Of a DNA stretch of 64,000 bases, positions 24,657 to 58,747 are shown piece by piece. The translations under genes and the position numbers were made by a program. Position 1 is the stretch's first letter; each line of letters starts with the position of its first letter. The DNA comes from Zygnema cylindricum (lineage: Eukaryota; Streptophyta; Zygnematophyceae; Zygnematales; Zygnemataceae). Location: contig JBBHKE010000288.1 of the NCBI GenBank assembly GCA_037447655.1, positions 67,361 to 131,360 on the forward strand, written 5' to 3'. Below the pieces are notes generated by a model. The model made no database searches, was not told the origin of the DNA, and worked only from the letters and a program-made list of their open reading frames with translations.

Positions 24657-24657
24657 A

Positions 24658-25064: not shown

Positions 25065-25070
25065 GAGGGT

Positions 25071-25137: not shown

Positions 25138-25199
25138 CCAATAATAAAACTCTAAAAATTCCATGTAAAATCATGAAAAGGTCGTTACTTTCATACCGT

Positions 25200-27897: not shown

Positions 27898-27956
27898 ATG
27901 GCTGACTACGAGGATATCCGTTTAAACGACGATTTAACCACGAAGGATATGGCAGA
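27898..27956 (+). CDS. Host gene exon 1 (start codon)
   Basis: The ATG sits in gcagccATGGCT, a good plant start context, after a pyrimidine-rich leader. 19 codons plus 2 bases end in ATGGCAGA before the donor GTGAGT. Conservation is unknown, so the start is an inference. Confidence 0.6.
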
Positions 27957-30900
27957 GTGAGTTTTTTCCGAGATCCCGTAAAAAGAGAGGGAAGAATTGG
28001 GATTTCTTGCCTTCTTAACCGTTTCCAGGACTTCATTTTATTTACTTATTTTCTTTTTTAGGATCTTACTTTCGTTTATGAAACTTAGAGGGAATCGAGA
28101 TGATGAAACATTAAAAAGTAACACGACTTGGTGAATTACGCAAAAAAAATAAAAATATAAAGAGAAAAAAAAACTTTGCTCGATGCCCATACTTCTTCTG
28201 GACTCACATGTAGATTTGGAAAAAACGAAAATATGTTTCAAAAGTTGATGATGTAAATGGCTCGATTAGAAATTTTGGGAAATGATGATAACAGTATTGA
28301 TTCTAATTCTATTCATATTAATAATGTCTAAAATGAGGTAAGGGTCTGAGTAAACTACAATATTTTATGTTTTATATTTTAAAATTTTATTAGGCTGAGA
28401 TGAGATCCGTCAAGTGTTACAGTTTGTAAAAATCGTAAGAATCGGTGACGTGACGGTCACGTTTGTGGTCCTGATGACGGAAAAAAAAAAGGAGATGCGA
28501 TTTTTTTGGAGCTCAAACTTAAGATTTAGACAGATGCGACAAGAATTTCCACATGCCCAAACCTTTTTTTTTTGTACGGAGTTAGGTCCCACGGGTTGTT
28601 CCCCAAAGAAAAATAAACATTATTTTGGGTGTATCGTCACGCTAGGTGACAATGACTATTTGGTCGCAAAAACACCCAAAAAAATGGAGAGAAGTTGAAA
28701 CTTGGGCTAACTCAAACAAGTATATTGGAAAAAAAATGTTTAAAAATTTCTGGATGGAGCTCTGTCTGTCTAGTGGACTCCAAATTGGCATGCGTTCAAC
28801 AATTTAGGAAAACCCATTTGTTACATTTGGTGCTGAATCTGGAGAATTTTTTTTATCGGAGTTTTGTCTTTTGTTGTTTTTTTTTTTTTTTTTGGTCATT
28901 TTATGAAAATGCAACCGGAGTCTGTAAAATACGCGTTCCTTATAGTCTTACATTTTTCGTTTTTTTTAAGGTTTTTTTGCAGTCACGCACATGCAACTCG
29001 TCTCTTTTTGAAACAATGTAGACTTTTCCAATATTCTTTTCTTATTTTCCTGAACCTCAGCTCAATAATCTACACGCCCTACATTTATTTCTAAACACTA
29101 TTAACTCGAATCTGGTTTATGTTTTTGCCACTTTTTCCAAAATTCTAAAAGATAAAACTAAAATGGGTCAACTTAAGACCGCAGTCGTGAGTTTATTTTT
29201 CTGTATTTTACCCTCTTTCCTGTACATTTTCATTTCAAAACCCCTTCATAACCATAAGTGCTGTGTACCTTGATTATTTTCTGATGAAATATGATGACAA
29301 ACTCGACGATTCAATGTTGTACTGCAGTGGTATTGTGGTCAAAGGAAATGGAAAGGAGCACGTCAACATTGAATCTGAAGAGGCAGAACAAGTCCTTAAA
29401 AGTGAGCATATTCCGTACAACTTTTGATTGCGCTTTCTATTTTATTTATGTCCACCCATATTGTGTTACATTGGTCGAATAGGCAGGACAGGGAATTGGG
29501 AGAGATTCGCAATCGGCATGTACTTGTTCAGTTCTGCCATAAGTTGGTTTTCAGTTTTGCTTCTTATTGTTTTTTGTGTCACTGTAAGGTCGGTTGGATG
29601 TTGACATATCGCCCGGTCTTTCGTTTTGACTCCTTGATTGTGTCAGTTTATGGAGTGGTTTGGGCGGCGCTTATTCACATGTCTTCAGTCCTTTCTTTTA
29701 CTTGCTTCAGTGTCTTGTAGGTTGTGTGGTGAATTAATCTTTTTACAAGGAGTAAGTGGCAGAGCAGGAGAGAGAGAACCTAATTGTAAAACTTTCGCAT
29801 AAATACATTGTTGTTTTGCCAATACGATCTTTTATGATGGCGATGTGAGTGTATTTATGTGAAAGATTTTGCATGGATTATCTTGTTGTGTTCAATGTCT
29901 TTCTGGCATACGATCCTTCCATTTGGTATCGAAGCCAATAGTCAAGGTAGTGGTAGTTGTGGCCATGAGAGGAAAGAAAAAAATTATACCCCTTCCCACT
30001 CGGCCGTTCCCCCCCCTCGGACCTGTCGAAAGGTATCGCAATTCTGGAAGAGCAGGGTACGGAGTTCAAATTCATGGGGTTGCTTACGAAGCATCTCTCC
30101 CCATAAATCCGTTGATTCCAGTTAGAAGGGCCAGTTCAAACATGTCCGAGGAAATGTTACGTGATCTCTTTGCAAACTTGTCTCATTACGTGGATCAGCG
30201 AGTTTCCAACATTTCCAGGAAAGGAAAAACTCGTGTGGATGATGACTCGGATACGGTTTGGGGTCCGGGTGGAGATTTTGTTGGAAGAAGTACATTCAAG
30301 CGCACCTTAAGGCATTTTCGGAAGGTGGTGAATGTAGAGGAGACGAGCTTGAGGCTCAAAACTTGTGGAAATAAAAGAATCTAGCGGATAATTCCGGGTA
30401 GATGTAATCTTGTTTTCGTGTCTGTGCATGACCGTTTCCTCACGCATAGCACCGTGTCCGGTTGTTGGAAGGCATTAGAGACTCAATTCAAGAAAAAGAT
30501 CGAAAATACACATCAACCTGTGTCCTCCGAATTTATGCAATTTAAAATTAAACCGAGAAAGTCTATCAACGAGGGAATAAAGTGATACAACATTATTGCG
30601 GAGAAAATCTTAAATAACGGTCGAGTCATTGTTAAAGAAGATGAATTGACCGACTTTAGAATGCATTGTTGAACAAATTGGCACAAAGAAATCAGATTGC
30701 CGAGAGAGAATTGTACCTACGAGTTTGTAAATAATTACCTCAAATCGATCGAGGGAAATGAGTTGAGCTCTTTGAAAGGCTTTTCATGCAGATTAGCCTT
30801 GAGTGCATTAGTCCCAAAATATTCGGTTCTGAATTATTTTTGTCGTACAAGGCAAACAAGGGGAGGAGATCGAGGTGGAGGGAAAGTACATTAAAAGGGC

Positions 30901-33900
30901 GGAATTCCGAAGGTCTAGCCGAAACCTTAGCAAAATCCCCAACCATCATGCGTATGTTGGTCATATGTTGGTTGCTTGGTTTGATAAAGAGAATCAAAGC
31001 TATTTTTACGGTAAATGGGGCCATACTAGGCCAAAATGTTATTCGAAGAACAACAATGGAGGCATTAGAGGAGGTCGAAATGGTGGCCATGGTTGTGGCT
31101 GCTGCAACAAGGTTGCTGCTGTGGTGGTCGCTTTGGCGGATTGTAAAATTTTCAAGTAGATGACATTTTTATAAGAGATGATGGACATATACGTTCATTA
31201 CTGATTTTGTCTTTCAAATATGAAAGTGACAACAAACCGAAAAAAAAAGTGGATAATAAATTCTGACTCGTCAAATGATGTGTACGCTTGTCACTCTTTT
31301 TGATGGTGTGCAACCGTTTTGAAACGAATATTTTCGGGAAGTAGGTGAACCCCTATATTTTTTTTCTATTGGTGACATTGGAAAAATAATTTTCAACGTC
31401 TTGAAAGGCGTGTTGTCACGAGCAAGTATGTTATGTCACTTTCACAAATCCCTTTACAAATTGAAAGGGGCACCATATACCTAGTACACGCCCCTCTATG
31501 AAGTTTTTTTTGACTAAAGTTTTGTTCGCACGATTTTCGATTCGGGTGTGTATGTAAATGCGGAAGGCACCGATGAAATTATATTTTTTTGTGTACTTGG
31601 ATTTTTTTAATGACGTAGGCAGTTGGGAGACGATTCACAAATTGTAAGATTACATGCATCGATGGTTAAGATAATGGAAGTGTGGAAAATTTGGCATTAA
31701 ATTTATCGAAACATAATATGGGGATATTATTTAAGTCAGCCCCGATACTTAAAAGAGGTCTTAACAAAATTTTCCATGAAAATTGAAGCATCGGAAATGA
31801 TGGAAAAAGTGATAATCAATGTGCTGTATAGGAATTGGATTAGGAGTTAAATGCATTTACGGGTTGGTATGCGCCTTGATATCTCGACAATGGTTTCAGT
31901 TGTGTGGTGATATATTGCCAAGCTTTTGAAAAATGGCATTGAAAGGCTTTGAAACGGATATTTTAGCATTCGGAGAGGGGTTATTGACATTGGACTTGTT
32001 TACTAATCGGGTGTGGAAATTGTTGGAGTGTATCGATTATTGGGATGTATATTGGGAGAAGGGTTTGTATTCAAGGGAATCCACGTTTGGGTATGCATTC
32101 GTGTTTGTTGAGGTGACATCATAAGTCCTTTTTTTCAACCAATTGTGGCATCAAGTTTGACATTAAATTCAACAAAGGCGGAATAAATGGTTGCTTGTGA
32201 TGCATCGAAGTTGTGGGTATAGGAGATGTTGTGAAACTGGGAATTTGCATCCATTCGATGGCTGATGATTTTCATGTAAAGCATGAATTATAATGCACTT
32301 GTGAATAATCCATTTTTCCACAAACGTGAAATACATGAATTGTTGTTTTTGGTGCGACTCTGGGCAATCTTCCTAATTCACGTTGTACCGTTTTTGGCTC
32401 CGCGCGAAATCGTATTGTATCACTTTGACTTCCAATATTAGGGGAAACACTAATTTTGGTGGGCTTGTGTGTTAGCGCCTTTCACGGTGCATTATTGCAG
32501 TTGCATTATTGTAGGTCAGTCAGATTAGACACGTGGCATTTAGTCATTGGACAACCACTTAGATTCCTTGTTAGCTGTTAGCTTAAATATTTAGTTTTGC
32601 AAGCATATGAATATTCACGTAGAGTATGAATTATATTACACTTGTTAATAATCCATTTTTCCATAAGCGTGAAACACATGTATGAAGAGTTGTTTTTGGT
32701 GCGACTCTAGGCAATCTTCATGAATCACTTTGTACTGATTTTGGCTCTGCGCAAAATGGTATCATATCACTTTGACTTCCAATATTAGGGGAGACACTAT
32801 TTGTGGTGGGCATGTGTGTCAGCGCTTTTCACGGTGCATTATTGTAGTTGCATTCTTCTAGGTGATTAGACATGTGGCTTTTAGCCATTCGACAACCACT
32901 TAGGTTCCTTGTTAGCTGTTAGCTTAAATAGTTAGTTTTGCAAGCATATGAATATCATTCACAAACAAGAGAGATAAAGATATGGCTTTATTGAGATTAA
33001 GACAAATCCGTCCAGACATACATTTTGTTTCCTTTGTACTTTTCTACTGGATAATTAAAAGTGTGTTCCTATCTCGACTACGCACGTGAATGCCTATATC
33101 TCTCTTCCACTCCTATTATGTGTAATTTTTTGTTGCTCTATAACTTTTCTCTTTTCTGAAAAGCAGACCTTTTCTAAAGAGCAGATCTGAATTTCCAAAA
33201 AAACTTCAAGGTCTAGATGACAACCTGTTTCGCAATGTCACTTGTTGCAAGACATCTACATAAATCTGGGAATCTCTCTCATCGACTTACAAACTCTGAA
33301 GAATGAGAGCACGAATGAAGCTTAAAAGAACGTTGATGACCACTATCTACCACCACGGTACATTAATGGAGGCTTAAACCTCGCATTATGTTAACCTTTT
33401 GGCCGAAGTCAACGCAGTTCGCGTCACTCTTCCCATGAACACCAAAATCACACCTCTCATCTGTATTACCCCTTGAGTTTAAGCCGATACTCACATGGTT
33501 AGATCGATCGGACGCCACGTCTTAGAAGTGGAGCGAGGTGGTCAAAACTCTCTTGAAGAATAAATTCAACACCTAAATCATGTCCAATCTTGAGCTCACC
33601 GTATAGAGCTCCGCGTCCGCATTTTGGAAAGGAAAATTTTTCCACAAAGACCGGCGAGATGGTCAGAATTGTGTGAAGAAAGACAAAAGGTATTTCTACT
33701 GTGACAAGCTTGGTCACTTCATCTCTGTTTGCCGGAAATACACATACGACAAGCAATATGATAAAGTAGACTAGTCAAAATTGAAGAAAGGAAAATGAAA
33801 GTGGAAGGCGCTCGTTCACTCACAAGCCATGATGGCGTCCACCTTCTAAACCAACACCAACGATTGGATGGTGGACACCGGCGCGTCCAAACACATGTGC

Positions 33901-36900
33901 TATCGCCTTGAGTGGTTTTCAAACTTCAAGGAAACCGTTTTCTGGCATATACATGGGAGACAATTACACGTCACCCTGCAGTGAAATAGGCGACATCAAA
34001 ATTGAGGCGTTCGTGGATGGCAGATTGCCCCCCCGCACAATCAAAAACGTACTATACGTTCCCAACTTCAAACGCAATCTCTATTCTATCCCACAAGTTG
34101 AAGAAATTGGAATCTTACTTATTTGGCAAAAGAGAAGGAAAGATAAAGTTGATGAGGAACAACCTTTCCATTGCATAAAGAGAGAGAATGGCGGATGCCA
34201 CATATCGACTAACGTCTAGCCCGAAATCACGATCTCAAGCTCTTGCAGCCGAAGCAGTTCTCCCATCACATGGGAAGGACACCGAAGCCAAAAATGAGGA
34301 GGTCAAAGAGAATACCGTAAAAAAATAAACTCCAGATAACAAAGAATGCAAAGACAAACCCTCACAACCGACATATAACCAACTCCTCTGACATAAGCGA
34401 CTAGGCTACCTCCACATAGAGGGAATGAATAAACTAAATGGAAATAACACCGTCAACGGCTCGATCTCACCTTGTCAAAGACTCGAAGGAGTCTGCCATG
34501 GTTGCGAGATTGGGAAATCCCACGAATGAAGAAACTAAGTTCAAACAACACGGCCAACGGACTCTATCTCACCAATGTCAAAGACTTGACAGAGCTTGCC
34601 ATGGTTGCGAGATTGGGAAATCCATCGCCTTCGTTTTCTAAATTTGAAGGCACCAAGGCCAATCGCCTACTCAAATTAATTTACTCCAATGTAAGGGCCC
34701 CCAACAAGGGTGCCTTTATACACTAGGATGAATGCATGGTAACTTTCATTGACGACTTCTCCCAAATGACTCACACTTATCTATTTTTTCAAAAAAATGA
34801 AGTATTCAAACAGTTCAAAACATTTAAAGCAATTGTAGAAAAAAAGCCTGATTTCAAAATAAATGTTCTATGAAGCGATTACGGAGGGGAATACCTGGCA
34901 GCAGAATTGATAAAGTTCCTCACCGCCGAAGGCATCGAACACTTGTGACCTCACTCGGAACTCCGCAACAGAAATACGTTACGGAATGTATGAACCGTAC
35001 TCTCATGGAAATGGCGCAAAACATGACGGCGACACACACCATCAGCGCTGATTTTTGGGGAGAAGTAGTCTACATAGCCACATACCTCAAAAATCGGTGC
35101 CCAACAAGGGCATTAGAGAATGCACCACCCTTCAAAAAATTGGCATGGCAAAAGCCCCAACTTGTCACACCTTACAGTGTTTGGCAGCAGGGCATACTCA
35201 TACAACCAAACAATCGAGGAGGAAAGTTGGCCCTTAAAGGAATTGAAGGAATATTCCTCTGATATGTCAAGAAAGGGCGTCGAAAAATGCACCACCCTTC
35301 AAGAAATTGTATGGCAAACGCCCCAACTTGTCACACGTGATAGTGTTTTGTAGCACAGCTTACATATACAACCACAACAATCGAGGAGGAAAGTTGGCTC
35401 TTAAAGGAATTCAAGGAATATTTGTCGGGTATGACGAGCAATGTATAGCTAACCCCATTGGAATAAAGCACACCAAGAACGTCACAACTACCAAAAGTGT
35501 GAAATTTGGTGAGCAACCACAAGGCGAAAACAGTGGGAGGCACACAATTGGGGCAAATTACTTACTTTGATTACTCCATGAGCGACGAGGAGATTGAACA
35601 AGGCACGAATCATGGGGAAGTGGACGATGAGGAAGAGGCACCTTCTCTATCAATAACCATAACGCTGCCTGCAATTAAAGAACAACCAATAGATGAATAA
35701 ATTGAAAAAATAGCAAACAACCAATAGATGAACAAATTGAAAAAGTGGCTACTTAAGATGCAAAAAAGTATGAGAATGTGTTAGTCAATAAAAAAGGGCC
35801 AAGCAGAAAATTCTAAGCGGCCAAAGTATAAAAATAAAGTGTGAGAATTTGAATCGTCACTTGTCACCAATGATCGGGGCAGTCGGCAAAGAAACCGCCC
35901 TCAAAAATACGGGGAATGGCTTGAGACATCAAAGGTACTAAGGCGGAAGTTTACCGGACTGGCGCATGCTGAGAAAACCACAAGCCTCAAAGAAGCTTTC
36001 TCCTCACCCACAAGCTTCAAAGAAGATTTCTCCGGCGAGAAACCCACAAGCCTCAAAAAAGCTTTCTCCGGCAAGAAACACACAAGCCTTAAAGAAGCTT
36101 ACTCTGGTGAGGACAGTGACAAGTGGAAGGCAGCCGTCAACAAAGAGATGGCATCCATTATAAAGGACAACATTTGGTCCCTCGAGGATTTGCCACAAAG
36201 AAAGAAAGCAATTGACAATAAGTGATCCTTTAAAATTAAACTCAATGTAGATGGGACTATAGATGGATTTACAGTAATACTCGTTGCAACGGGGTACAAA
36301 CAAAAGGAGGGGATTGATTACCAAGGCACATTTGCTCCACACATCAATTTCTCCTCCGCAAGAGCTTTTCTAGCCCTTGTAGCTACACTTAGGATAGAAG
36401 TCGAGCTGATGGACGTGAAGACGTCCTTCTTCCAGGGCGAGATTGAAGAAGAGCTGTACATGCACAACCGGAAGGTTATGAGGATCTCAACAAAGTTTGC
36501 AAATTGTAAAATAGTGAAGTTTGCAAATTGTCAAAAGCTCTTTATAGACTAACACAATCCCTAAGGTCATAGAATGTAAAGATTGTTGGATATTGACGAA
36601 TTGCCAATATATCGCGAAGCGTCATATGTACAATTATTTGTTTTGGAGTGAAGTGCTGCGTCATCATACGAAATGTACGATGTCGTTTCGTGACACTTTT
36701 TGAGGCGCCCGCGATCGAAATGTACTATTTCGTTTCGCGTAACTTTTATTATTTCGTATGCAAGTGTTTTGGTTTCGTACGCACGAAACTTCTTATTTTG
36801 GATTTTCACATTTTGAAGAAGAAGCGTGAACGCTTTCTTCGTGTAATCTTCCTTTCCATGTTTTTTTTTTTTCCCGGCAAGAGACCTTTGTAGAATAGGA

Positions 36901-39900
36901 CAAAATTTTGTCGACTTGCTAGCTCTCTTTGTTTTCTTTGTTTGTAAGGTAGTTAGAGGTGGTATAAAGTCTGCAGCGTTCAGCTGAAAATATTAAATCT
37001 TTTGGAGTAGAGTTTATTGAAGAGAGAGAAGAGAGGAGAGAGACAATTATTGAAGAGTGAGAAGAGAAAAGAGAGAAAATGTAAACAGGCTTCGTCCAAG
37101 AACACTTACAATTTTTTTTGGCTTATTATCCTCTTCTTGTCTATGAGAGTCTGCTGTGAACTATTTCTGTTTTATTGGTGTATTATGTTGTGAGCATTTA
37201 TTTTTAGGTCCTTCAAAGATTGACCAATTGCTCCAAAGTGAGGGGTTCTTTAAGTTTCAACCAAATCATTCAGTTTATTATCGTGAGAAACAGAACGTAA
37301 TCATTGCTATATATGTTGATGACTTGATGATCCTAGGGGAAACGAAACATGACATTTTAGAGATAAAAAAAATGTTATCTAACTCATTAGAAATGAAAGA
37401 CCTAGGAGAATTGAAATATGTCATTGGCATTGAGGTCATCAGTAACAATGAGGAGAAAACAATTTAGCTTTCACAAAAGAAATACATTGGAGAGTTATTC
37501 ACCCGATTTTGACTCCAGGACGCAAATGCAATCTTAACCCACTCGAGCTAGTGGATAAACTCATCGACGAGCTCTCTGCACACCAGGCACCATTTCAGGA
37601 AGCAGTGAGAGCAGTTATCTACACCATGAATTGCACGCGTCCGAATATTGGCACAACTGTCTGAATTCTGAGCAGGTTCCCCCACCTATCGTTATTTTGA
37701 GCAGGTTCCTGCACCGACCAAGAAAGCAACACTGGTTAGTGTTGCTTTCTTGGAATTCTGAGGAAGTTTAATGTTGCTTTCTCAGAATTATGAGGAAGTT
37801 CCTACACCGTCCAGGAAAGCTACAGTGGTCAGCAGTGAAAAGAGTCGTAAAATATCGTAAAGGAACAATTAATTACACTCTCACACTTGGTGGGCAACAT
37901 GATAACATTGAGATTCATGCATTCACGGATGTTGAATGGGGAGGGGACTTAAGCAGCAAGAAATTGAAGCGTGAGTTGGAGCTCCAAGCTCCAAAAAAAT
38001 GTCGCTCTCTCCACAATGGAGGGCGAGTACATGGCGGCACCAACCACTGTGAAGGAAGTTTTGTGGCTAAGGTTTCCTAAATGAACTCCAATTTACTCAG
38101 ACGAAGAAGACTCTAATTTACATTGACATTTAAAGCTGGTTAACTATAATCAAAAGTTTTGTTAACCACCCTAAGATCAAGCATATTTCCATGAGATACC
38201 ACTTTATAATGGATAATGCCATAGCGGAAGCGGTGGCCCTTCCGTTGGCCTTCTATTACATGCCAGACATGAAGAATGTTACATGGTGGCCTTCTATTAC
38301 ATGCCAATGTTGCATGGTGGCCTTATATTACATGTTAGACAAGGAGAATGTTGCAAACATGCGCACAGAAACAGTTTTTACCAACAAACTAATTTTATGT
38401 GCAAGAAAAGCTAGACTAAAAAAAGGAAGAATCCTCGGAGAGGCAAAGATTTTTATGCCTAAGGAGAACAAGATAAAGAAGGTGGAAATAACCAAGGTGG
38501 AGAGCGCCTAAATACTTTACTCATTTCCAAACCTGGCCCTTCGGTAGGACCGCCGTCGCTTTCGCGCTACAAATGCTGTATTCACAGTAGGAATGGATGA
38601 TGAATGAGATGAGGAAACGAACAATACCGCACCATTCAAGCTACAAAATTACAATAACAGAGGCATCAAGCAGGTCGGCGACTCGGTTGTCAACCTTTTT
38701 GGAGCGTAACGACGGTCAAAATATACGATTTGGAGCTTAGCGACGGACAAAACACACCCTCAAGTGCGTCAAAAATTGACAACTGTGGTAAATCATCCTC
38801 TTTTCCATAAAACTTTTCGGAATGCAAAAATACAACTTTGAAAAAACAGGAGGTCGATCTCGAATGAATGATCCATACTAACGAATTTTTTTAAAATGCT
38901 AACCCATAAACAAAATCGCCAATTAAAATCATCTAAAATAGAACGTAAAAAAATGTAAACTTAAAACGATGGTTTGGTGCGGACAGATTTGAGTCATCTG
39001 CGACTAATTGTACGGCAACGTCAATCACATTGCAACGTTTTTGTTGATGTGGGGTGACGCCAAAGGCGATTCACATCCAAACCAAACAAAAAGACATTCA
39101 TTTTCGCATCTCATCCGTCATCCATTTCTAGTGGGTATTTTGCAAATATTGGAGCATTTTCTCCAAATCTGGTTGATTAGATGTCCAAATTTCAACCAAT
39201 GTCATAATTGGTGAATCACTGCCAAACTTTCTCTTACTCGTGTTAACCTCGTTGTGCGATGGAGTCGGCGCATGCAACTTAGTTTGTTTGATGAATCAAA
39301 TTCGTGTAGGTTAGTTTCTTTGACGAATCAATTTTGTGTAGGTGTCTGGTGTTTTTGAAACCCTCCTACACGGTATCGTGGCACTTACGGCTAGCCACAT
39401 CAGTCGGTTCGACATTGTAATGGTCCAGTATGGATCAAATTTGGAAAAGAAGACGTCATGGTAAATGGACAACGTCTATACTATCACGTGCCTTTGAGAT
39501 TTGACGGGTAATTACTACGGAGCATTTAAAAAACTTTGACGGTCAACTATGGTCTTGGTTAAAGCTACGGAAGTATCACCGCAGATTAGAGTATTTTTTT
39601 CGGTGCGAATCTAGGCAATCTTCCTGTTTCAGTGTGAACCAATTTTGGCTCCACGCAAAATCGTATCGTATCGCTTTGACTTCCGATATTAGGGGGGACA
39701 CTATTTGTGGTGGGCATGTGTGTCAAAGCCTTTCACGATGCATTTTTTTGGTTTATTATTGTAGGTGAGTCAGATTAGACACGCGGCTTTTAGTCATTGG
39801 ACAGCCACTTAGATTCCTTGTTAGCTTAAATAGTTAGTTTTGCAAGCTTTGGAATATCACTCATAGACAAGAGAGATAACGACATGGCTTTATTGAGATT

Positions 39901-42900: not shown

Positions 42901-45900
42901 CCACCCTGATTTTTATGGTGTAGTAAGCAGTGTATTGTATTTAAGGCATTTATGTGATTGTAATTTTTTTTTTTATCTGTATTTCCCTTTTTGGCTAACG
43001 GTTTCTCACAAACGACATCTTTGCTCATAGACATTGGAATACCCATTGCTACTTTTAGGGGTATTAGAAAGGTGGGTATCATGCATTTTTTTTCAGTCGA
43101 ACCGATGTCACTTGTCTATGGCCAATTTCATGTATTTTATAGCTTCATGACCCATTCACCAAAAAGAAACCACTTTATTAGAGGTTGGCTGATATTTATA
43201 GTTATTTCATTGTAATTTATATTGTTAGTTACTACAATTTCATCATGACCATTTCCGATCTTTTTGGTTAAGAACAAAATTAAGACAGGATGATTTGAAA
43301 AAAGAATGAAAACATATAAAAATCAGAACATAAAAAAATTACGGCACAAAGGGATTATATATCCATGTAATAGAATTTCATACTAGCCACATCAAATATG
43401 GGATTTCTCCAAAACCGCTTATAAGCTTGGCCATCACAATTAACATCAACCTAACCACGCATTGCACCTAACCCACTAGCCACTAGGAGAAATCCACACA
43501 GCACCCTTCAATGTATATGAAAACACGTGTAGAATAGTAATATATGAGTATCTATACAACAAGGATCATGTGGCTACTTTTTTGAATCTTTCATAACAAG
43601 ACCTGGCTACTCCAACCTTTGTATGCCACACAACATGGAAAATTGTCGCCTTAATTGAACTTCATAAACATTCAATGTGGCTTTGGCCTCAATAGATTCA
43701 CAAAAAAATAATCGTATATTTCAGTAGAAAGATTATGACTTGCTTAACAAGTAAAATATGCACATATGAGATCTACAAGATTACGTCGGAGATTCCCGTC
43801 TGCCCATAGAAGACCTTTTGCGATAATGTACAAAAAAGTACACATCCAAGAGTAGGCTTCCAATACATCCACTAGGTTTCTATTATATTTACACTTCAAA
43901 AAGGCTTACAACACCTGTTTTTTTTCATCAAACCTTGGCAATCACACCGTTGATGCATTGGAATGCGAGCCTTTCACGAACCATTGTAATTTGATTGTGC
44001 TAAAATTTATAATGGAATGCGAGATTGATAGATGCACTCTAAAGTGACGAAAAGTCCAAATGTGTGGTCATTATTCCCAACTTGTTTGACAGGGTTCGTT
44101 GGAGAGCACCTTTCCAGGCATTCCTGATGTGTTCGACTGGCTGAACAACTCCATAATCCAGGTGTGCACATAACCTTAGGTCAACCAAAATGGGGAATTA
44201 TGTCAGCTGTCACACTCCTTCATGTTCTCACAGTCATTTCCTCATGGCTATGTATAGGAATGCTGTTGCAATCATGTTCTTGTTTCATATCCCTGTAACT
44301 TTTGTCCTTTAATATATCTTTCGTTGGGGGAGCTTCATTATTGTGTACAATAAGGTGGAGTTTTGCTTCAAAATGTAAACCGCCCAGGTTTCACTAGTCA
44401 TGATTACAAAGTATTGCCCAAGTGTGTGACAAGCCAATGGTTGAAGAAGATATTTCTCGAAAGGTCATGCTAGTCTTCAAAGTCCCAATCAATGTAAAAG
44501 ATATGAACTACTTCTTTATCTGAAGTCATACTTGAAGCAACGACCTTATCGGAGGATTTCATGTCCCATCAACTGCATGAGCAAATTAAAGAGAAATTTC
44601 AGGCAGAGAATTCCTATTGAAAATAATCCGTCTTGAAATCTTTAATTACTAAATGCTTATAGAGGCAGTCAATATAACCAATAAATTTAAAAGGCAATAG
44701 AAGGGATAATTGCCAAAAAAATATGGATCTTTTGAGGAGAGAATTGTCATTTGATTTAAGAGAATTGACACTTTTGCATTTAAATTGTTACCTTCTTTAG
44801 TTATCTTCAACAAGCATGAAAGTTAATGTGGATAGAATCCGCAGGGTCCATTCTGCTTTGGTACTCCTTCACTAACACACAAACTAGTGTTCAGATTAAA
44901 AAACAAAACAAGAAAATTCCGTATTCAAGCTAAAAACTTAGCTGTAAAACTAACAACCAAGGGGTCAAACTATGGAATATTGGAAATAACTAATAAGGAA
45001 AATTGGAAAAAAGTACGCGACAATTAAGGAAAGACTGACTAATTAGCTACACTATTGGATTTTTTCCATAAGATGACCAGACGTACAGGCTGAATAGATG
45101 ACTTTCCCGTCATACAACTTACAAGGTACGTTTAATAAAGGCAACTATATGTGCTCCAATTCTTTTAGCTACTGGGATAATAGATGTGATTCAGCTTTTT
45201 GAGATGAATGGAGTAAACTTTCTTAGTCTATAAACCAGCTTATTGCGATTCACTGGTAAAATTGTCCAAACCACTCACCTGAACCCTGGTCAAAAGTATT
45301 ATCGGATGAATAATGTTTTTTTTAAGCTAGCGTTTAGCCCGTAACGAGTATGTTAATTGCAATTTTTCTTATGAATATTATTAGAGGGAAAAAATATATA
45401 TAAACATATTAGAACATCTTATGGTGATGAGAATATCCTGCGAATGTGAGTATTTGTCTAGGTGAGATATCCATTCTACTGGTCAGCCATTTAGTACATC
45501 TTTGTTGATATCTTTTGGGATGAATTTATGAATCTAGTAGGAAGAGGTAGTTGTATGGGTGTTGTGAGGTTATTACTTGGACAGGCTGGAATCCTGTGCA
45601 CTAGAAGGATAATGCGAAAAATAAGTGAAATTAAAGTTTCTCTGATTTTCTAATGTGTGAAACACAAATTGGAAATTGAGTTTTATCGAATTTATGTGTT
45701 AAGCCCTTAAGAAAACTCTTACTCTTACAAAATTTCTCCTTCGAAACTTATTTTATACACAACAAGAAAACATGATCCTACTAACACTATATAACGAAGC
45801 AGGCTTAATCTACTTGGACATCTCACCGAAAGAAGGCAGTGCGCTAGACCGAAATCTCGGTACAAAACAATACTACGTACCCAATCGAAACTAGTCATGT

Positions 45901-48900
45901 GGCACTTAAGTTAACGGAACCGATCAAATAAGACTGAACCAAACTGATACAAACTGAAGAGCAAATACTCAGCCGATTAGATTCTGACATTGTGCTAACA
46001 TTCCCCTCTCATTGTTGGAATCTTTCTACGTCACAATAAGCCTAACTTAAATCCACTCAAAAAGACATCCTGCATAACTAACTTGGTAAACTTGCCAGCC
46101 TCCTTATTAGTGGGGACAAAAGAAAACATAAACTCGGCTTTCGAATTCGTCATTCTCCTCACCCACGGATCGTCTTCGATTTTGACTCATCTGAGCTATT
46201 TGTGAACAACTAGAATTCATATAACCATCGTTACAGACATCAGAGTCTGATTTTGCCAAAAACCAGGTCGCACATTTTCCCCCTTAGCCTTTAGAACATC
46301 ATTTCCTTCCGACTCTGATGCTGCCTGTTCCAGAACCTCCTCCAAGACGTGCTTCTATTTGATATCCAAATCTAACTTTTGTTGTCTTGCTAACTTCATT
46401 ACAAATTTTCAATATTTGTGGAAATCCACAAGTTTAGACTTCATAACCAGATTCCTCTTTGGATCATACACACGGTACAAATTCCCCTTATAGCCATATC
46501 CCATAAAATTCCCTATCCAGCTTCTTGCAGCAAGATTTCTTATCCTTTAAAGTTTGTTCTAGATACACAGTCACTTTACATCCCTAAATTCGTAAGCGCA
46601 AGACGGAAGATACTCCCCCACTCCATAATTCATCGAAAGTTTAATAAAACGGAAATCAATGTCAATCTTAAGTTACACATGGGCTTTGCATTAAGAATTG
46701 CGTCTCCCTATAAAAAGATTTTATTTCGGGTGTTGTGAATCATGGCTCGTAGCATCTCTTGCAGAGATCGTCTCTCTCTCTGTAGTTGCATTCGATTTGC
46801 GAGAATAGGATTTGCGAGAATAAGGGGCATTAATCTGCTGCATTATCCCCATCTTTTAACAATACCTCAAAATCCCCTCTCTTGTCAGATCTGAAGTCTA
46901 TTGATTTTTGTTCCGATGTCTTTCCGCCCTCACTATCTTCTAAAACGAATCCGATTTATTTTTCAGCAAACACACCCACGATTTCCTCAAATAATCCTGA
47001 ACAATAACTGAGATATGTTGATGATCCCCCTAGATTCTTTGATAAAACGTGTCAACAGAGATCCATGTGTTCGAGCTCCAAAGGATGTTGTGCTACTAAC
47101 ACAGTAACATACGCGACTCGGAAAACGTGGTCACAATAACACTACGCAGTAAAGCAGGACAATAATCTTGGACACCTCACCAAACCAAGAATGTGCACAC
47201 CCACAAAAACGGAAACTGACGCATAGATCTTCAAATATCGAACCTACAGAACAAGACTGAACTGAACCGATTCAAAACTGGCGGAGACCATTTAGTTGTT
47301 GTCGATTCTCACAATGTCCTGAACAGATACAAAAAAATGCTTTGTATTAGATGCTGTTTTATAAGTTTTATCCATAGAAAAAAAATATCTTTACTCTATG
47401 CGATAATTGACGAATATATAATATAATCATGTACAGGGAAGAAAAAGCTAATAGCAATTGTATTTGATTTTAGCTAATAAATGACAACATATTGAAAGTG
47501 GACATATTGCTTAACGAAACTCGTTTTTTGCTGGATTGGGGCAGACTACGTGGGCCGACCCTGTTTGCGGAAACGGTATATGTGAATCACCAGCAGAGAG
47601 ACCAGCATTTGGCCGCTTTGGGTGTGAACTAGATTGTAAAAGTGATGTAAAAGTAACAAATATCACTATATCTATTTCAAACAGTTTTCGCTCCAGCACT
47701 GAGCAAGTGGCAAGCTCATGGAATATTTGTAGGAGGCAACCGACAGATTTTTGTTGGTACGTATAAAATTTGTAATAGAAACCATTTCAATGCACATTAT
47801 TTTTTACGAGATTTTCAATGTTGGAAAATGAAATTATACTTTATTTAAAATAGCTTGTTAGCTTTCTCACGATTTAGAAATTTTAGGTCTAAATTAAATC
47901 TTCAAACAAGAATAACGTCATGGAAAAAGAAAAAGTAGAAAAGATGTTGCAATTTACACAATCGATTAACATATTTATGTGTGTGCCATAGTTACAAGGC
48001 GATTGTATAATCTTTTTTTAGACACCTTGCATAAATTATACAATTTAATTCCTAGTATGGTTATTGCAACACCAAGAAAATCAGTGTCGGTACTGAAAAA
48101 GGGGAATAAAATAGTAGCTTTCCATCAAATAATTTGCCTGTTGTAGCTTGTTAGACCCTAGAATGTAGATGCAAGCTAGTATCGTATAATTTGGAAAGAC
48201 ATATTGATTAAATAGAACAAAAGGATATTCACAAAGAGACGATACACAAGAAACCGGGGACTAAGGGTACGTGCCCTTTCTCCTAAATGAGGGTTTCCCT
48301 GACTCGTTTTTCTTGAAAAATCAAATGGTACATCTGCAATATTTTCTTTCACCTGAGGAAAGTCGAGGAGCCCAAAGTAAGAATCACGCCATCTTGTTAC
48401 TTTATCCGTACTTCCTTTGTTTTTTTCCGTTTCCCTATCTACATGTAGGCTCACCTCTTCATTTATTTGTTAAGAATCTCTACAGTCCCGGTGTGGAAGA
48501 AACACAATGACCTGTTGATCCATAACCTCCATGCCAAAGATAACGCAGCTAAAGTGACCCTAAGCTGTCCCTTCCGACAAGTCACCTAGACCTCCTACCA
48601 CTTGCTACCCCTGGTCAGCTAGTTGTGACCAGCAACTGACAATTTCTTGTGACGAGCAACTGACAACCACTTGTGACCAGCACCTGACACTCGGCACCAC
48701 CCAATTAACAAAATTAGAGACCAAAAGGACAAATGAGCTAAATGATATGGCTTATTTGAAACTAGTTTTCATTTAAGGTATAATTTTTTTACAAATTGAT
48801 GAGTGTGGTTTCCTCGCAGTCTAGTATGATTTTTATACTCACAGGTCCCCTTTAGTTAGGTTACGTTCAAAATATAATATCTTTCTTGCATATGTCATAC

Positions 48901-51900
48901 AAAATAACCTAAATTTTAAATTGACCAATAGCCACACTCAAACTTAATTTCATATCTGCAACAGACTTTTTTCCGATTTGTAGCATCATATTTGTCCTTT
49001 GCCGGAAAAAATATCTAGATCGCGTCAGATTCGTCACGTCGTCATGGTCCCACACAATCTTTTCTGGAATGTTTTTTAACCTCCGCCGGAAAATATACGT
49101 CAACGTCCCCCGTTATTTTGCGTGTGTCTGTCAGTAAGAATCTTGTATGTCGGACGCTTTGAAGAATCTCGAACTTGTATCATAAGCGGCAGCAACAATG
49201 ATTCTTGACAAAGTAGTCGAATTATATGGAAGCCGCTGCCGCTATCCAGGTGCGTTTGTGCAAAAATTCTTGGGTTGTGTGCCCATGTAAGCGAAACTTT
49301 GAAATGTAGCTTTCAATTTTAGGGAAGGTTCTTCGTACTACTTTGCAGAGCATTATAATATGCAAATATGAAATCGCAACTTGTAATATGACAGTTGTAG
49401 ACGTGGATAAAATAGTGACGGTTGTAGACGTCGGGTTTTTTGTGACGTTGTAGATGTTTAAGGTTTTGTGATCTTGAAATCATGCTTACATGTGACGTCG
49501 CTAGTACCAAAACTTTTCGCCATGGCTTCCCGATTTTTTTTTTTTTATCACTCGATATACCATCAAACTACAACCAAATGTAGTAAGAAAAAGAAACGAA
49601 GTTCTTCAATTTCAAACCAGTATTTTCGAATTTCCTCCTAAAAGAGGGAGAGAGGAGCGACAGCGTAAAAGGGAGGGGGAGAGACGATGACTACATAGAC
49701 TTTTGCAAATTACGCGGGAATGTAAGTGGAGGTCTGAGACCCGTGCAATTTTTTTCAGTACATACTCGTAATTTTTCTTCGTACATGCGTGTGACCGAAA
49801 AGAACAAAAATAACATGTATACTCCCTTATGCAAAAAATTCAAAAACGTGTGGAGCGTGCGACAAAGTTTTCTTATTTGTTGCTCAGCTGTTACTTTTAA
49901 TAAGATCAACTCGCTTGTCTATTTTTGTAGAAGTTTGAAGATGAGTTGGCGTGACGAGGCGAGGCAGTGGGTCGAAAATATAATAACGCCAAATTGGAGT
50001 ACCTCCTAAGTTTCAATATGACGCAAAATGTACATTGACTTCTACACAATTTTCCTACGTCGAAAGATTTTTTAGTTGTAGGGTCAATTTTGGAGGAAAA
50101 CGTACCTTTACTTTCACACATGGGCGCACGGCCTTATGTTCTATATGAGTTTCTTCGTTTAATGATTTGATCGAGAATGGTTACATCATACACATGGTAC
50201 TTATTGTAGTACTTACAATGACACTCTAAATTCACTAATTCCTCAAGTAGTTAAGAATAAAAATATTCATAGTCCCAAATCTTCCTCTCATATATAATAA
50301 TAGAGACAGAACTTAATGTTCAATATCAAAGCCTCTGTCCCACATAATACACGCTTGAACTTGTTCCACAAGCGAAGTACTCATTTTTTTATTGTTTATA
50401 TTGTTGATCATGGACGATGTTAATTTTATCGATAAATGAGGCCAACCCCAATTGTATTGCGTGGCAAATGAAAATATACGGATCTCAATATGGCTATTTC
50501 ATAAATCGTGGAACATGCAAAAGTACATTTAGTTTGGTGGTGATCAGTTGACAGGATACACGTGGCATAGTTTAATTGGTCATAGGCATGTTATTACACC
50601 ACAACACGCCAGAGTACAAGAAACACACAGCAATAGACGAATATATTTCTATGTTACATATCTTACACATTCTCACATAGAGTTACACAATTAGCAAGGA
50701 GGAAATTTCAACTTTATTAGAATAGTGCTCAAAATCATTGTACCTTCTAATGGCGCTCATTTCCGCTTATGCCTTATAATCCTTTCACTAGTAAATGGTT
50801 ACAAAGTCAATAACATTGCTTGTATTTAGAGTGAAATTATACTTTTGTCTATCGATTAATTGCTTATGTTACTTTGTGATTCACCTAAGACGGTATTCCT
50901 TGTGCAATTTATGTTTCGTATCTACTAGCTTGTGGTGACAGGCTTATACGATCAGCTCTTATGGACGTGCAGCGAACCTCTGTAGAGTGCGGCAGTCTTG
51001 ATCAATCGAGGACTCGTTGGGCAAGAGTGGATTTCTAGAAAAGAAGCAATGCAAGGATCTTGTCTCGAGTTAAGGCACGGTCGATTTTTGCAAGTGCCAG
51101 AAAGGAAGCAAATGGACCAAAAGGTCACAAAGATATTTTGCAAGATAAAGTAGGAGCAAAAGATAATCTTATAAGGGGACAGACAGACAGCTAGTCTCAA
51201 AACATCACAGTGAGGGGGCCATTTGAGATCCTAGAGGGGATTGATCAAACATACAAAGCCCATAACTGCAAAATTTTAGTTCTAAAATAATCTTATAACA
51301 ACTCATACGAAGATGGATGCTCTTTGGTAGCTTATACCTCTCGATACTCGAGTTTGTTGGTCAAAGATGAAGCAATTGACTTCAGCCTCCTCTCGGATGC
51401 AAAGATTGCACTATTCACTCTATCCCTCCCGGTTCTGGTAGACTCACATGGCTTGAAAAGAGACAACACATGGCTTGAAAAGAGACAACTGACAACATGT
51501 ACATGGAACAAGGTGGCTGAGGCGTCGTTGGAGTTTGGGTTCATCACCGGATATGTGTCGCACAGCGATACGAGTTCAAAGTGCTCGATGGTTGTAACCA
51601 GACAAGAAGGAAGAAACGAGGTTTATGATCGGCGACAAAGTGACATTCCTAGAGAGGAAAGCTAATACCCTTACTACGATGAGGGGCAAGCTATTGTGAT
51701 ATGCAGAGAGCATGAGCAAGTTGGAGGCAATGAATGCATCATACGAACCAAAAGCCAAGGGTTGTGGTAGTGACCGAAAGAGCTCCAACAAAGATCAGAT
51801 GTCAACAACTCACATTGGTTAAATCACATCGAATCAAGGCCGCCATTTTAAAAGAACTAGGTTTACAAAAAGCACTAATAAGTTCTCCTTAGACTTGGGT

Positions 51901-53828
51901 TTAAAGAATTACCAAGAGAGTGGGGTGAAAAACGACCAAGAGGTTATACAAAGATTAGAAATTATCTGCATCGACGGCGTTGCAAAGACTGATGACTGGT
52001 GTACGCGAGACATCTCTAATTCAATAACAGAAAAATGAGCATCAAAGGTTAACCCCACGTTTATATTGGGTCTGATCCTAATCGAGTATACCAACCTATC
52101 GATCAGCTAAAGAGAGAAAATTAGAAGAAAGGTTGTGCTCTATGGAGATGCACAACGCCTTTTACTCATCGAAGGTTGAGGTGAGCACAAAGTGCAAGGA
52201 GAAGAGCAAAACGCCTTTTACATATCAAAGTAGAGGTGAGCACAGAGGTAGTGGGAGGAGAAGAGCAAGCGGCGAGAGAAAAGCAAACTTTAGTAGAGAA
52301 GTTTAGTCATCGGCTGACAAGCGAGGGGTGACTGCAGTAGGTCAAAAAAGAGCATCATGAACCCCCACCTTCCGCACATCCAGAGGGGGATTGCGATGTG
52401 AAAGTGAAGACCTTGCCTTATTTACAAAACCAAAATTCAATGGCAAAGTTATGACGAAATCATGACGGCTAGGTGAACGTTCATACTTAGCGTCCGATGA
52501 TGTCAATAATGTTACGATTTATTGGTTCGGGTGCTGAATCAGCTTGATTTCGTCCCTCTACTCCTTTGTTCGATTTGCGTCTACTTTATTTGTGCTGTTT
52601 ATTGTCGGTATTACTATTTGTCTTTGTGTGCATAGGTCCGATACAATTCTGGATTGTTCATTTGTTCATTTTGGGGTACAGTAGTTTGTCGGTTCATGTA
52701 GATATGCCCTAATTATAACTGGTCGTTTCGTAAGTTTCTGTCGTAGACGTTTCTAGCTTGAAAGGTGTCAGTTTATGGGGTGTTTGGCGCAAATTTGCAG
52801 GTGCTGCGCCCTCTTTCTGTTGCCTTTGTGTTTCTGTAGGCTTAGAAAGCATGAATCTCTCTGTAATTAGGAAAGAGGTTGGAAGATAGTAGAGGTGAGA
52901 GACAAGCCTTGCAAATCTCGGTTTTTAAATGGCGTATTTTTTTGAGTGTTTCCGCGTGCATTTTTTTGTTGTGTCTCGTAGCTATGTAGTGTTCAATCCC
53001 GTCCAACAATATGGTAAGTTCGTTGCCTTACCATGTTATAAAGATGTTATGCGCCACTTACTATAATATGTGTTTTACAGGAGTGAACTCCACAATTTTC
53101 ATCTAATAATGATGGTACCGATGTATGGCGGAATTGACTAACATTGTATCCACGCTAAATCCAAAGCTAACTAAAAATCATGATTTTAATTTTAAATTTT
53201 AATTTCTAACAATGAACGCCTCCGGTGATTTTAAATAATCAAACAATTACGTCTTTCCTACCCCTCCATTGCAGGTTCCCTACCAGCCAAGCATTTACAA
53301 GTTTACAACTGTACAATGACAAATACTCTCTTCAAATCCCAGATGGAGACTGGGAGTTCGTCCTTACTGCTCCATATGGGGGAGTGTCTGGAGAAATTTA
53401 CCTTAACAATTCACGTAAACTAAATCTCGTGCGATTTGGTGGCTGTCGAGATAACCAATCAGAGCTCAATCGTTGCAGAGATGTATGCTTCCATTTTATT
53501 TTATGCACATCATTGCGAACTGTCTATTTGAGTATGTACTATGTTGTTTCATTTTTGGGACTTATATATTGAGGTCGCATTTTGAATATTGCATAAAATT
53601 TAAAATGATGTTATTGACGAATTTTAACATTTTTTTGGGTTGTGATTATTGCAGACCTGTTCAAGGTTGGCTAACTGCGTATATGCAAAGTGTCCACCGG
53701 AAAAAAGCTCAGGTTATGATTATGACGAACGTGTATCCAATATACTCGCTGTTTTCATGGATTGTTTAAATGCATGCGCGGCTGCTGGAAACAATTTTTT
53801 AGCTATTCCCACTGATTGTGATGACATT
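27898..53828 (+). CDS. Multi-exon membrane protein, polycystin-like (5' part)
   Basis: Eight candidate exons with GT-AG borders join without breaking frame into about 366 codons. Order: N-terminal cytoplasmic region with a MADYEDIRLNDD start; a Lys-rich helix (EQVLKKINAHLKGINKATR); one hydrophobic segment (FMLLSFVAFSILYSLMVYL); then an ectodomain starting ADTFWSF and PDVFDWLNNSI, with about a dozen Cys and several N-glycosylation sites (NITIS, NNS). TM1 followed by a large Cys-rich loop with an xxFDWL motif is how polycystin-family (PKD2-like) channels begin, and CGNGICESP with FGRFGCELDC resembles cysteine motifs I associate with algal and protist members. The family is inferred from layout, not shown by search. 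The remaining TM segments and pore must lie beyond 53,828; no stop codon was found. Confidence 0.6.
28062..28130 (+). CDS. Host gene exon 2 (borders uncertain)
   Basis: The acceptor follows a strong pyrimidine tract (ttctttttt-ag). Phase fits exon 1 and gives ILLSFMKLRGNRDDETLK. The end at 28,130 (donor GTGAAT) is chosen because its phase fits exon 3; a donor GTAACA at 28,118 would need an extra exon. An acceptor 33 bases upstream keeps the same frame. Confidence 0.4.
29259..29401 (+). CDS. Host gene exon 3
   Basis: Encodes YDDKLDDSMLYCSGIVVKG and then HVNIESEEAEQVLK, ending one base into a codon before donor GTGAGC. The remaining two bases are supplied by exon 4, giving a Lys codon and a continuous helix. 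The acceptor may be at 29,258/29,259 (cataag) or internally at 29,327/29,328 (tactgcag); both have the same phase. Confidence 0.6.
29460..29921 (+). repeat. 5' LTR of Copia F
   Basis: About 462 bp. It begins attgtgttacattggtcg, where the 3' copy has TGTTGTGTCCCATTGGTCG, so the TG is mutated. It ends CGATCCTTCCA before the PBS. It matches 40,321-40,440 and 41,594-41,940. Confidence 0.8.
29924..29936 (+). other. Primer-binding site of Copia F
   Basis: TGGTATCGAAGCC, two bases after the LTR, is close to the initiator tRNA-Met site TGGTATCAGAGCC. Confidence 0.8.
29967..31160 (+). pseudogene. gag: Copia F gag
   Basis: Gag of the H type with frameshifts and stops: an N-terminal part with MSEEMLRDLFANLSHYVD; the core HDRFLTHSTVSGCWKALE aligned to HDYFLTHDSAHKCWRAIG in H; KEDELTDFRMHC; YEFVNNYLKSIEGNE. 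Two decayed zinc knuckles follow (the second is YFYGKWGHTRPKCY at about 31,000-31,040) and then a short Gly/Arg-rich tail. The first Cys of the second knuckle is lost. Confidence 0.75.
31230..32340 (+). pseudogene. pol: Copia F protease relic joined to RT-RNase H
   Basis: KKWIINSDSSNDVYAC at about 31,240 corresponds to EWVIDSGASHHVCT of H. After about 200 bases the sequence is already RT (SLYKLKGAPYT, then FVRTIFDSGVYVN), so integrase and the RT fingers are deleted. RNase H relics follow (STKAEYMVACDASK-like) to ALVNNPFFHKR at 32,290-32,330, where the Copia G LTR starts. Many stops. Confidence 0.75.
32265..32958 (+). repeat. 347-bp tandem duplication at F/G junction
   Basis: Two units, about 32,265-32,611 and 32,612-32,958, each contain the end of F RNase H (ttaataatccatttttcca-like) followed by the first 270 bases of the G LTR (ggtgcgactct, gacttccaatattagggg). 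The duplication therefore arose after G inserted. Confidence 0.75.
32689..33235 (+). repeat. 5' LTR of Copia G
   Basis: The second, complete LTR start after the duplicated unit. It matches 39,592-40,137: gtgggcatgtgtgtca, gacaaatccgtccagacatac, tcctatttttctctct regions. The right end is approximate. Confidence 0.65.
33240..34240 (+). pseudogene. gag-pol: Copia G gag end and protease
   Basis: Gag is mostly eroded. A zinc knuckle relic, RYFYCDKLGHFISVC, is at 33,689-33,735 with its first Cys changed to Tyr. The protease motif WMVDTGASKHMC follows at about 33,865-33,900 and a LYVPNFKRNLYSIPQV segment at 34,050-34,110. Stops and frameshifts separate the blocks. The VDTGAS motif is intact but isolated. 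Confidence 0.7.
34370..35570 (+). pseudogene. pol: Copia G integrase with internal duplications
   Basis: Pre-integrase HKRLGYLHIEGMNKL; zinc-finger CHGCEIGKS present twice because of a 104-bp tandem duplication (34,444-34,625); core VTFIDDFSQMTHTYLFF and SDYGGEYLAAEL; then NRTLMEMAQNM and ATYLKNRCPTRAL. The C-terminal part (APPFKKLAWQKPQ, NNRGGKLALKGI) is also present twice, with a period of about 169 bp. Ends near 35,560. Numerous stops. Confidence 0.75.
35975..36115 (+). repeat. 36-bp tandem repeat in Copia G RT start
   Basis: Four units beginning ccacaagcctcaaa at 35,978, 36,008, 36,044 and about 36,080 (spacing 30, 36, 36). Each encodes a PTSLKEAFSGEK-like 12-residue block, where Copia RT normally has a single such block before DKWKAAVNKEM. 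Confidence 0.85.
36115..36578 (+). pseudogene. pol: Copia G reverse transcriptase, N part
   Basis: Continues the repeat in frame with SDKWKAAVNKEMASIIKDN, then ATGYKQKEGIDYQGTFAP, ELMDVKTSFFQGEIEEELYM. The region after YMHN contains a 24-bp duplication (gaagtttgcaaattgt) at 36,493-36,535. It is interrupted by the solo LTR. Confidence 0.75.
36584..37215 (+). repeat. Solo LTR with perfect target duplication
   Basis: 632 bp, TGTTGGATATTG to GGTCCTTCA, flanked by AAGAT at 36,579-36,583 and 37,216-37,220. Deleting it and one AAGAT restores the Copia G RT frame across the junction (VKIDQLLQSEGFF). No coding region inside, so it is a solo LTR left by LTR-LTR recombination. Its family is not otherwise seen in the window. 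Confidence 0.9.
37221..38511 (+). pseudogene. pol: Copia G RT C part and RNase H
   Basis: IAIYVDDLMILGETKH holds the intact YVDD catalytic box, followed by LEMKDLGELKYVIGIEV. Next comes a region around 37,640-37,820 with partial triplication of the RKFLHRP/AGSCTDQE block, then WSAVKRVVKYRKGTINYTL, ASKKLKRE-like RNase H, and the end MRYHFIMDNAIAEA. The block tggccttctattacatg is repeated three times at 38,245-38,335. Stops and frameshifts throughout. Confidence 0.75.
37718..37753. repeat. Perfect 16-bp inverted repeat (hairpin)
   Basis: Arms ccaagaaagcaacact and agtgttgctttcttgg around loop ggtt, in the duplicated part of the Copia G pol. A third partial copy, tgttgctttctcagaa, lies at about 37,772. 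Confidence 0.9.
38512..39591. other. Unassigned stretch before Copia G 3' LTR
   Basis: 1.08 kb between the end of G RNase H and its 3' LTR, with no coding similarity. It contains a 33-bp direct repeat (ttagtttgtttgatgaatca and ttagtttctttgacgaatca at 39,273 and 39,306). No polypurine tract adjoins the LTR, so a further insertion may lie here. Confidence 0.4.
39592..40137 (+). repeat. 3' LTR of Copia G
   Basis: About 546 bp, start tattttttTCGGTGCG, end GATCCGGGTTTCA. Single copy of the unit that is doubled at the 5' end. Confidence 0.75.
40138..40320 (+). pseudogene. pol: Copia F RNase H end and polypurine tract
   Basis: RIQWYFV, DLKAVKEVEFQYV and, after one frameshift, TLEEAVIILTKTAVYC and RGLPKLGLV align with the end of the H polyprotein (STLEEAADMLTKAAA, RPKLGLL). 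The tract tgagagggggaa at 40,309-40,320 precedes the LTR. Confidence 0.85.
40321..41940 (+). repeat. 3' LTR of Copia F with insertion
   Basis: Begins TGTTGTGTCCCATTGG and ends CGCTCCTATCCA. Similarity to the 5' LTR covers 40,321-40,440 and 41,594-41,940. Between them are about 1.15 kb of extra sequence without a recognisable open frame or clear terminal repeats. Confidence 0.75.
42081..42244 (+). CDS. Host gene exon 4 (transmembrane helix)
   Basis: Acceptor ttctgtacag, donor GTAAGA. 2 bases plus 54 codons: INAHLKGINKATRSY, a 19-residue hydrophobic helix, then QADTFWSFQASTAHNVILPD. It is in phase with exons 3 and 5. The strongest evidence that real coding sequence flanks the retroelement stack. 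Confidence 0.75.
42245..44092. other. Intron 4 of host gene
   Basis: AT-rich with poly-T runs. No retroelement coding sequence or repeated unit recognised. Confidence 0.5.
44093..44161 (+). CDS. Host gene exon 5
   Basis: 23 codons exactly, acceptor tttgacag, donor GTGTGC: GSLESTFPGIPDVFDWLNN and SIIQ. Phase 0 at both ends. The FDWL motif just after TM1 parallels the FWDWL-type motif at the start of the polycystin extracellular domain. Confidence 0.7.
45590..47325 (-). mobile_element. Copia K, internally deleted, in intron 5
   Basis: Minus strand. Left 3' LTR about 45,590-46,009, with polypurine tract AATGAGAGGGGAA (about 46,010-46,022). Right partial 5' LTR about 47,089-47,325, ending GTCCTGAACA like the left copy's GTGCTAACA. 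Shared blocks include cctactaacac, aagcagg and ttggacacctcacc. Between them only integrase and the last RNase H residues remain. Borders are approximate. Confidence 0.7.
46030..47070 (-). pseudogene. pol: Copia K integrase fused to RNase H end
   Basis: HMDLC (GPI motif region), LQEMLRAMIHNT, GDAILNAKPMCNLRLT and AARSWIGNFMGYGYKGNLYR align with LQEMVRSMVHAS, GDAILTANYICNRRLT and AARSWTGIFVGYSSKGNLYR of H. About 200 bases later KEAGKFTKLVMQD and GFKLGLL match the RNase H end, so RT and most of RNase H are deleted. Several stops. Confidence 0.75.
47545..47756 (+). CDS. Host gene exon 6 (Cys-rich)
   Basis: Acceptor ttggggcag, donor GTACGT. Encodes TTWADPVCGNGICESPAE, FGRFGCELDC, a Thr/Ser-rich stretch with an N-glycosylation site, and SWNICRRQPTDFC. 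Two bases of a Trp codon at the end are completed by exon 7. Confidence 0.75.
47757..50588. other. Intron 6, left part
   Basis: No supported coding sequence. A 24-bp unit (ttgtgaccagcaactgacaa) is repeated three times at 48,623-48,694. A run starting TGTTAGACCC at 48,149 may be an LTR start but no partner was found. Confidence 0.4.
50589..50720 (-). repeat. Fragment resembling chromovirus LTR
   Basis: tgttattacaccacaacacg and the following ccagagtacaa resemble the outer LTR end of the chromovirus (acaccacaacacgtcacagtg). Similarity fades after about 60 bases, so the end is arbitrary. Confidence 0.4.
52510..53008 (+). repeat. LTR related to Copia F, in intron 6
   Basis: Begins TGTTACGATTTATTGGTTCG and ends CCCGTCCAACA. 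The internal gtgtcagtttatggggtg and the downstream layout match the F LTR (gtgtcagtttatggagtg). No target duplication is visible, and no coding region adjoins it. Confidence 0.5.
53275..53482 (+). CDS. Host gene exon 7
   Basis: Acceptor cctccattgcag, donor GTATGC. One base plus 69 codons: FPTSQAFTSLQLYNDKYSL, then IPDGDWEFVLTAPYGGVSG and LVRFGGCRDNQSELNRC. It looks like a beta-rich extracellular segment. Phase fits exon 6 (shared TGG) and exon 8. Confidence 0.75.
53655..53828 (+). CDS. Host gene exon 8
   Basis: Acceptor gattattgcag, donor GTAAGT. 58 codons with eight Cys: TCSRLANCVYAKCPPEKS, NILAVFMDCLNACAAAG and IPTDCDDI. It is separated from exon 7 by a normal 172-bp intron, which supports both. 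No further exon was found before the retroelements at 56 kb. Confidence 0.75.
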
Positions 53829-58094: not shown

Positions 58095-58099
58095 ATTCT

Positions 58100-58720: not shown

Positions 58721-58747
58721 GAGATGGGAAAAAACAAAGTTATTAAT

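Follow-up and report, generated by a model that had tools for sequence, protein, structure and literature searches.

The first transmembrane helix (S1) of animal polycystins leads straight into the polycystin domain. As described in the relevant passages of PMC10846610, PKD2 of Chlamydomonas is cleaved in the large loop between helix 1 and helix 2, its N-terminal fragment running at ~140 kDa, and the Small Interactor of PKD2 (SIP; CHLRE_11g475150), a single-pass protein of 361 residues, corresponds to helix 1 of PKD2 together with part of its TOP domain; homologues of SIP are reported in these passages only from green algae. MST3 lacks S1, and the part of PMC11015965 dealing with it proposes that SIP supplies the missing S1, MST3 being placed in one complex with PKD2 and SIP. 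Land plants are described, in the section of PMC7312350 that concerns them, as having no TRP channels, and no title reporting a land-plant polycystin is found among the matches listed in the open-access literature.

The locus to be compared with these systems lies in a window of 64,000 nucleotides (the whole stretch of DNA that was analysed) and is best explained as the 5′ portion of a host gene rich in introns, whose product would be a membrane protein with a cytosolic N-terminus, one transmembrane helix and a cysteine-rich outer domain 240 or more residues long. Its exons, and the large intron with the elements that it contains, are as follows.

27898-27956, + strand: exon 1, with a candidate start ATG, coding amino acids 1-19 and part of 20
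28062-28130, + strand: optional exon, phase-compatible but weakly supported, which would add 23 amino acids to give a chain of 366
29259-29401, + strand: exon for the predicted cytosolic region ahead of the transmembrane helix; weak acceptor (score -2.46)
29402-42080, + strand: intron of 12.7 kb, mostly nested LTR elements
29456-29923, + strand: old 5′ LTR of the outer element, from self-comparison; boundaries approximate
32265-40049, + strand: inner LTR element, lying inside the outer one, with LTR copies at about 32265-33149 and 39588-40049 (82% identity); boundaries approximate
40320-41945, + strand: decayed 3′ LTR of the outer element, carrying an insertion of ~1.1 kb; boundaries approximate
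42081-42244, + strand: exon that encodes the transmembrane helix; rank 1 of 37 in the splice-model list
44093-44161, + strand: exon coding FPGIPDVFDWLNNSIIQ; rank 2 of 37 in the splice-model list
47545-47756, + strand: exon coding WADPVCGNGICESP...FGRFGCELDC, with 6 Cys; sub-par acceptor
53275-53482, + strand: exon coding the GDWEFVLTAPYGGVSG region, with 2 Cys wholly inside; weak donor
53655-53828, + strand: last recognised exon, with 6 Cys; rank 5 of 37 in the splice-model list

The initial annotation had proposed eight exons with GT-AG borders and compatible phases. Seven of them stand: joined and translated, they give 1029 nt, or 343 codons without a stop, every junction pairing a GT donor with an AG acceptor in matching phase, and the first exon starting at the ATG without an acceptor. 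The eighth, at 28062, is optional; its acceptor scores well (6.85) and its donor is GTGAAT, but it is left unproven because its G+C (0.333) shows no contrast to the flank, as is also the case for 28062-28116, and because the chain is already open when it is left out. The alternative in-phase form of this exon, of 12 nt, is unlikely. The frame upstream of exon 1 is open, so that this exon may start earlier than 27898. Further upstream, a run of ten Ns (25128-25137) is probably a short assembly gap. Splice sites were scored by a generic model for candidates of 60-260 nt in 24000-30000 and 41000-56700; 37 candidate exons pass, and the exons of the chain in their exact form take ranks 1, 2 and 5, whereas two acceptors (29259 and 47545) and one donor (after 53482) in the seven-exon chain are poor by the same model. 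A good GTAAGT donor borders the last recognised exon on its 3′ side, and the gene probably continues past 53828. No further exon was recognised in 53829-59300; a decayed Copia-type fragment (56900-58700, + strand) lies downstream of the last exon.

The predicted protein agrees with the earlier description of a transmembrane helix followed by a cysteine-rich region, and the motifs FDWLNN, CGNGIC and FGRFGCELDC are all present in the joined chain. The hydropathy profile of the 343-aa chain has a single transmembrane peak, in the window of amino acids 84-102; the second-highest peak reaches 1.45, in the window from residue 312 in the last exon, and no second transmembrane helix was found in the chain by this measure. 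The 240 residues after the helix hold 14 of the 15 cysteines, and all four N-glycosylation motifs likewise lie C-terminal to it. Such an arrangement is what one would expect of a signal-anchor protein whose outer domain is held together by disulphide bonds. A predicted inside N-terminus, a helix in the position of S1 and a long outer loop are all present, and this topology fits a polycystin channel or the green-algal SIP, and equally any signal-anchor protein.

The assignment to the polycystins, in contrast, is unsupported by any database used, although no better family appeared. In Pfam, which we take to contain both the PKD_channel and the Polycystin_dom models, the joined exons gave no row for either; no polycystin or channel row came up with the 343-aa chain at E<=1, nor with its pieces and the 366-aa chain at E<=10, where the filters of HMMER discard most rows above ~0.1. 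The 343-aa chain gave DUF5938 at E 0.27, below cut-off. Specifically, the Polycystin_dom (TOP) profile expected after helix 1 is unmatched at E<=10 in the chain as far as 53828; as this defining profile was tried and finds no match, we do not class the gene as a polycystin, and suggest no more than that its product may act like one. No pore domain or pore exon was recognised in the three + frames of 53829-63730 (Pfam, E<=1), which contain two gag fragments of Copia type and a single DUF row below cut-off; the gene may extend beyond the window. The chain has no relative in the PDB at E<=10, and NCBIfam gave one chance-level row only. Protein searches over ~5.8 billion proteins, in three length ranges, gave 763 candidates for the whole chain, none at E<=10; 13 candidates for a 111-residue region of a padded query, none at E<=1; and no candidate for a 126-residue piece. 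Viral contigs contained no match to the chain, and in prokaryote contigs, represented by one genome for each of 84,980 species, 11 peptide-word stretches were found, none of them a relative by tblastn, while a further search of these contigs gave no match; these negatives say little, being expected for a eukaryotic gene. A search of the open-access literature with the motif letters returned no related title among the matches listed.

Despite these negative results, we judge the chances about evenly balanced that the product is a membrane protein of the polycystin/SIP type, which is the reading that we prefer. Consistent with it are the open 343-aa chain, with its coding periodicity (reached in 0/2000 draws) and G+C contrast (7/7 exons); the single helix followed by nearly all of the cysteines and all of the sequons; the 12.7-kb intron, which without its LTR sequence would be close in size to another, short intron of the gene; and the algal precedent offered by SIP and the cleaved Chlamydomonas PKD2, in so far as the passages of PMC10846610 describe them. 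Against it stand the lack of any relative in Pfam, the PDB, the protein databases and the viral and prokaryote contigs, and the lack of both a second transmembrane helix in the chain and a pore exon in the + frames to 63730. The motifs may resemble those of green-algal proteins, but such a likeness is not a test. An approximate green-algal-like sequence, composed with the window already read, aligns at 36% identity over 112 columns, which we do not take as evidence; compared with the PDB, this composed sequence also has no relative, giving only a chance-level row at E 0.67. Our lean toward the polycystin/SIP family comes from this alignment, which itself proves nothing.

Referring to the systems described above, the comparison is as follows. 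Unlike the polycystin domain that comes directly after S1 in animals, the 240 residues after the helix of the window chain match no profile above cut-off. As in Chlamydomonas PKD2 (TRPP), according to the passages available on it, helix 1 is followed by a large outer loop, which in PKD2 precedes helix 2, but the likeness is one of topology, the window chain having no polycystin profile match and no pore region seen. The split channels of the MST3 type, as set out in the corresponding part of that literature, lack helix S1 in MST3 itself, whereas the gene in the window may have S1. Under the proposed mechanism, the chain would carry S1 and the beginning of the outer loop (on the TOP side), either of a channel of the polycystin type (group II TRP) or of SIP. 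A tetramer of such subunits would conduct cations, probably in the ciliary or the plasma membrane, with the disulphide-bonded loop binding an external ligand or filament and gating or anchoring the channel. Retroelement insertions in the introns would have lengthened the gene, leaving its frame unbroken.

A tentative alternative, possible though rather doubtful in our view, is that the product is a single-pass, cysteine-rich receptor or adhesion protein unrelated to channels, with a cytosolic tail, a signal-anchor helix and a disulphide-rich, ligand-binding head. The presence of only one transmembrane helix in 343 amino acids and the absence of a channel domain from the readable part (Pfam) agree with such a protein, although the chain is unfinished at the good GTAAGT donor and further helices may follow. 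Pieces of the chain also gave similarities, to DUF7137 (E 0.013) and PAN_3 (E 0.022) in the outer part and to a PHA01746-like family (E 0.13), all below cut-off, and the first two would suit a receptor; however, when the 366-aa chain was scanned whole, PAN_3 weakened to E 1.8 and DUF7137 was gone. The weak similarity to proteins with PAN_3 (PF08277) covers ~40 residues of the last cysteine cluster, but unlike theirs its score, 15 bits for the best piece and 8.9 bits for the whole 366-aa chain, stays below the curated cut-off of 21.1 bits.

Within the preferred polycystin/SIP reading, a narrower version seems unlikely, namely that the gene encodes a SIP-like subunit, short and single-pass, which makes a split channel fold complete and is itself no channel. 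By the description given in the SIP passages of PMC10846610, SIP (361 residues) has one helix and an outer domain that is part of the TOP domain, and the window chain (343-366 aa so far) likewise shows one helix and an outer domain as far as it goes, and SIP is the proposed source of the S1 missing in MST3 in the part of PMC11015965 cited above. The frame in the window, in contrast to that of SIP, ends at a splice donor rather than a stop, with no stop codon or last exon identified after 53828, and homologues of SIP are reported, in the same passages of PMC10846610, from green algae only. We regard it as highly improbable that a streptophyte, perhaps a land plant whose sperm swim, has retained a polycystin-type subunit with a cysteine-rich loop module. 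Should the gene nevertheless be of polycystin type and its host such a streptophyte, a ciliary Ca2+ channel family would appear to have survived in the plant line beyond the green algae; in a green alga it would be an expected, ordinary gene, and in a land plant a notable one. Either way, nested retroelements conceal a short-exon gene from simple ORF calling.

Open, phase-compatible exons alone are little proof of a gene, since stop-free segments are common in the introns: for segments as long as the seven exons, between 2.8% and 37% of intron positions are free of stops. The exons were therefore compared as a set with a null of 2000 draws of matched stop-free intron segments. The frequency of G at codon position 1 is 31.2% in the seven exons against a null mean of 20.6%, and that of Asp plus Glu is 13.2% against 6.1%, neither value being reached in any of the 2000 draws; the draws were unselected for a protein-like reading, whereas the exons were so chosen, so that 1 in 2000 exaggerates how improbable the set really is. 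Other measures on the set point in the same direction but are reached more often, namely the positional chi-square in 20/2000, alanine in 19/2000, RNY codons in 39/2000 and the purine contrast in 45/2000 draws. Overall G+C is weaker (151/2000), and cysteine content is unremarkable (472/2000). G+C lies above the flank in 7/7 exons; taken singly, only three of the seven reach 0.05 or less against the null (0.025, 0/586 and 0.0485), the second of these values being that of the exon 47545-47756, which none of 586 null segments reaches. A codon usage table from the retroelement ORFs marks two of the seven exons, the other five not being significant singly, and a local coding scan trained on the same exons places four of the seven above threshold, with several non-exon segments outscoring them. 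The motif pattern occurs once in the window and is absent from all of 100 shuffled versions; it was written from that very sequence and thus shows only that the match is not background. The exons as a set carry a coding signal, and the gene is very probably real. It is accordingly very unlikely that chance open segments or a decayed gene were strung together by a protein-seeking reader: the commonness of stop-free segments, the three sub-par splice sites and the failure of the local scan to single out the exons would suit that explanation, but it has to contend with a set signal reached in 0/2000 matched draws, phases that agree at every junction without a stop, cysteines and sequons that all but one lie on the same side of the helix, and, with the reservation just given, the motif match.

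The view that a host gene has been stretched by retroelements, put forward in the initial annotation, proves right for the 12.7-kb intron, which is largely LTR sequence. Self-comparison reveals a decayed direct repeat at both ends of this intron, with ~75% identity across 121 and 283 aligned columns, the left copy starting ~55 bases into the intron. A primer-binding-site-like TGGTATCGAAGCC lies at 29924, directly after the 5′ LTR of the outer element, and a purine tract (40310-40319) precedes its 3′ LTR. Removal of the outer element by its coordinates leaves ~190 bases, comparable with the 172-nt intron 53483-53654. Inside the nested inner element there are two tandem duplications, 34423-34623 and 35119-35422, with periods of 103 and 167 bases.

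In two of the four elements examined, the 5′ LTR is followed by a primer-site-like TGGTATC, which resembles plant initiator-tRNA sites, though too weakly to point to a particular host. Scans for tRNAs and with Rfam gave 0 hits each. Elsewhere in the window, a Ty3-type element on the - strand (11278-18564) has LTRs that are 96.3% identical, a higher value than for any other LTR pair detected in the window, with a primer-site-like TGGTATCAAAGC at 18076; an extra ORF of 249 aa (11806-12555, - strand), without a Pfam match at E<=0.001, lies downstream of its integrase/chromodomain. A Copia-type element, also on the - strand (59318-63679), contains two long open frames (893 and 517 aa), and a tandem repeat (63875-63974) lies just upstream of it.
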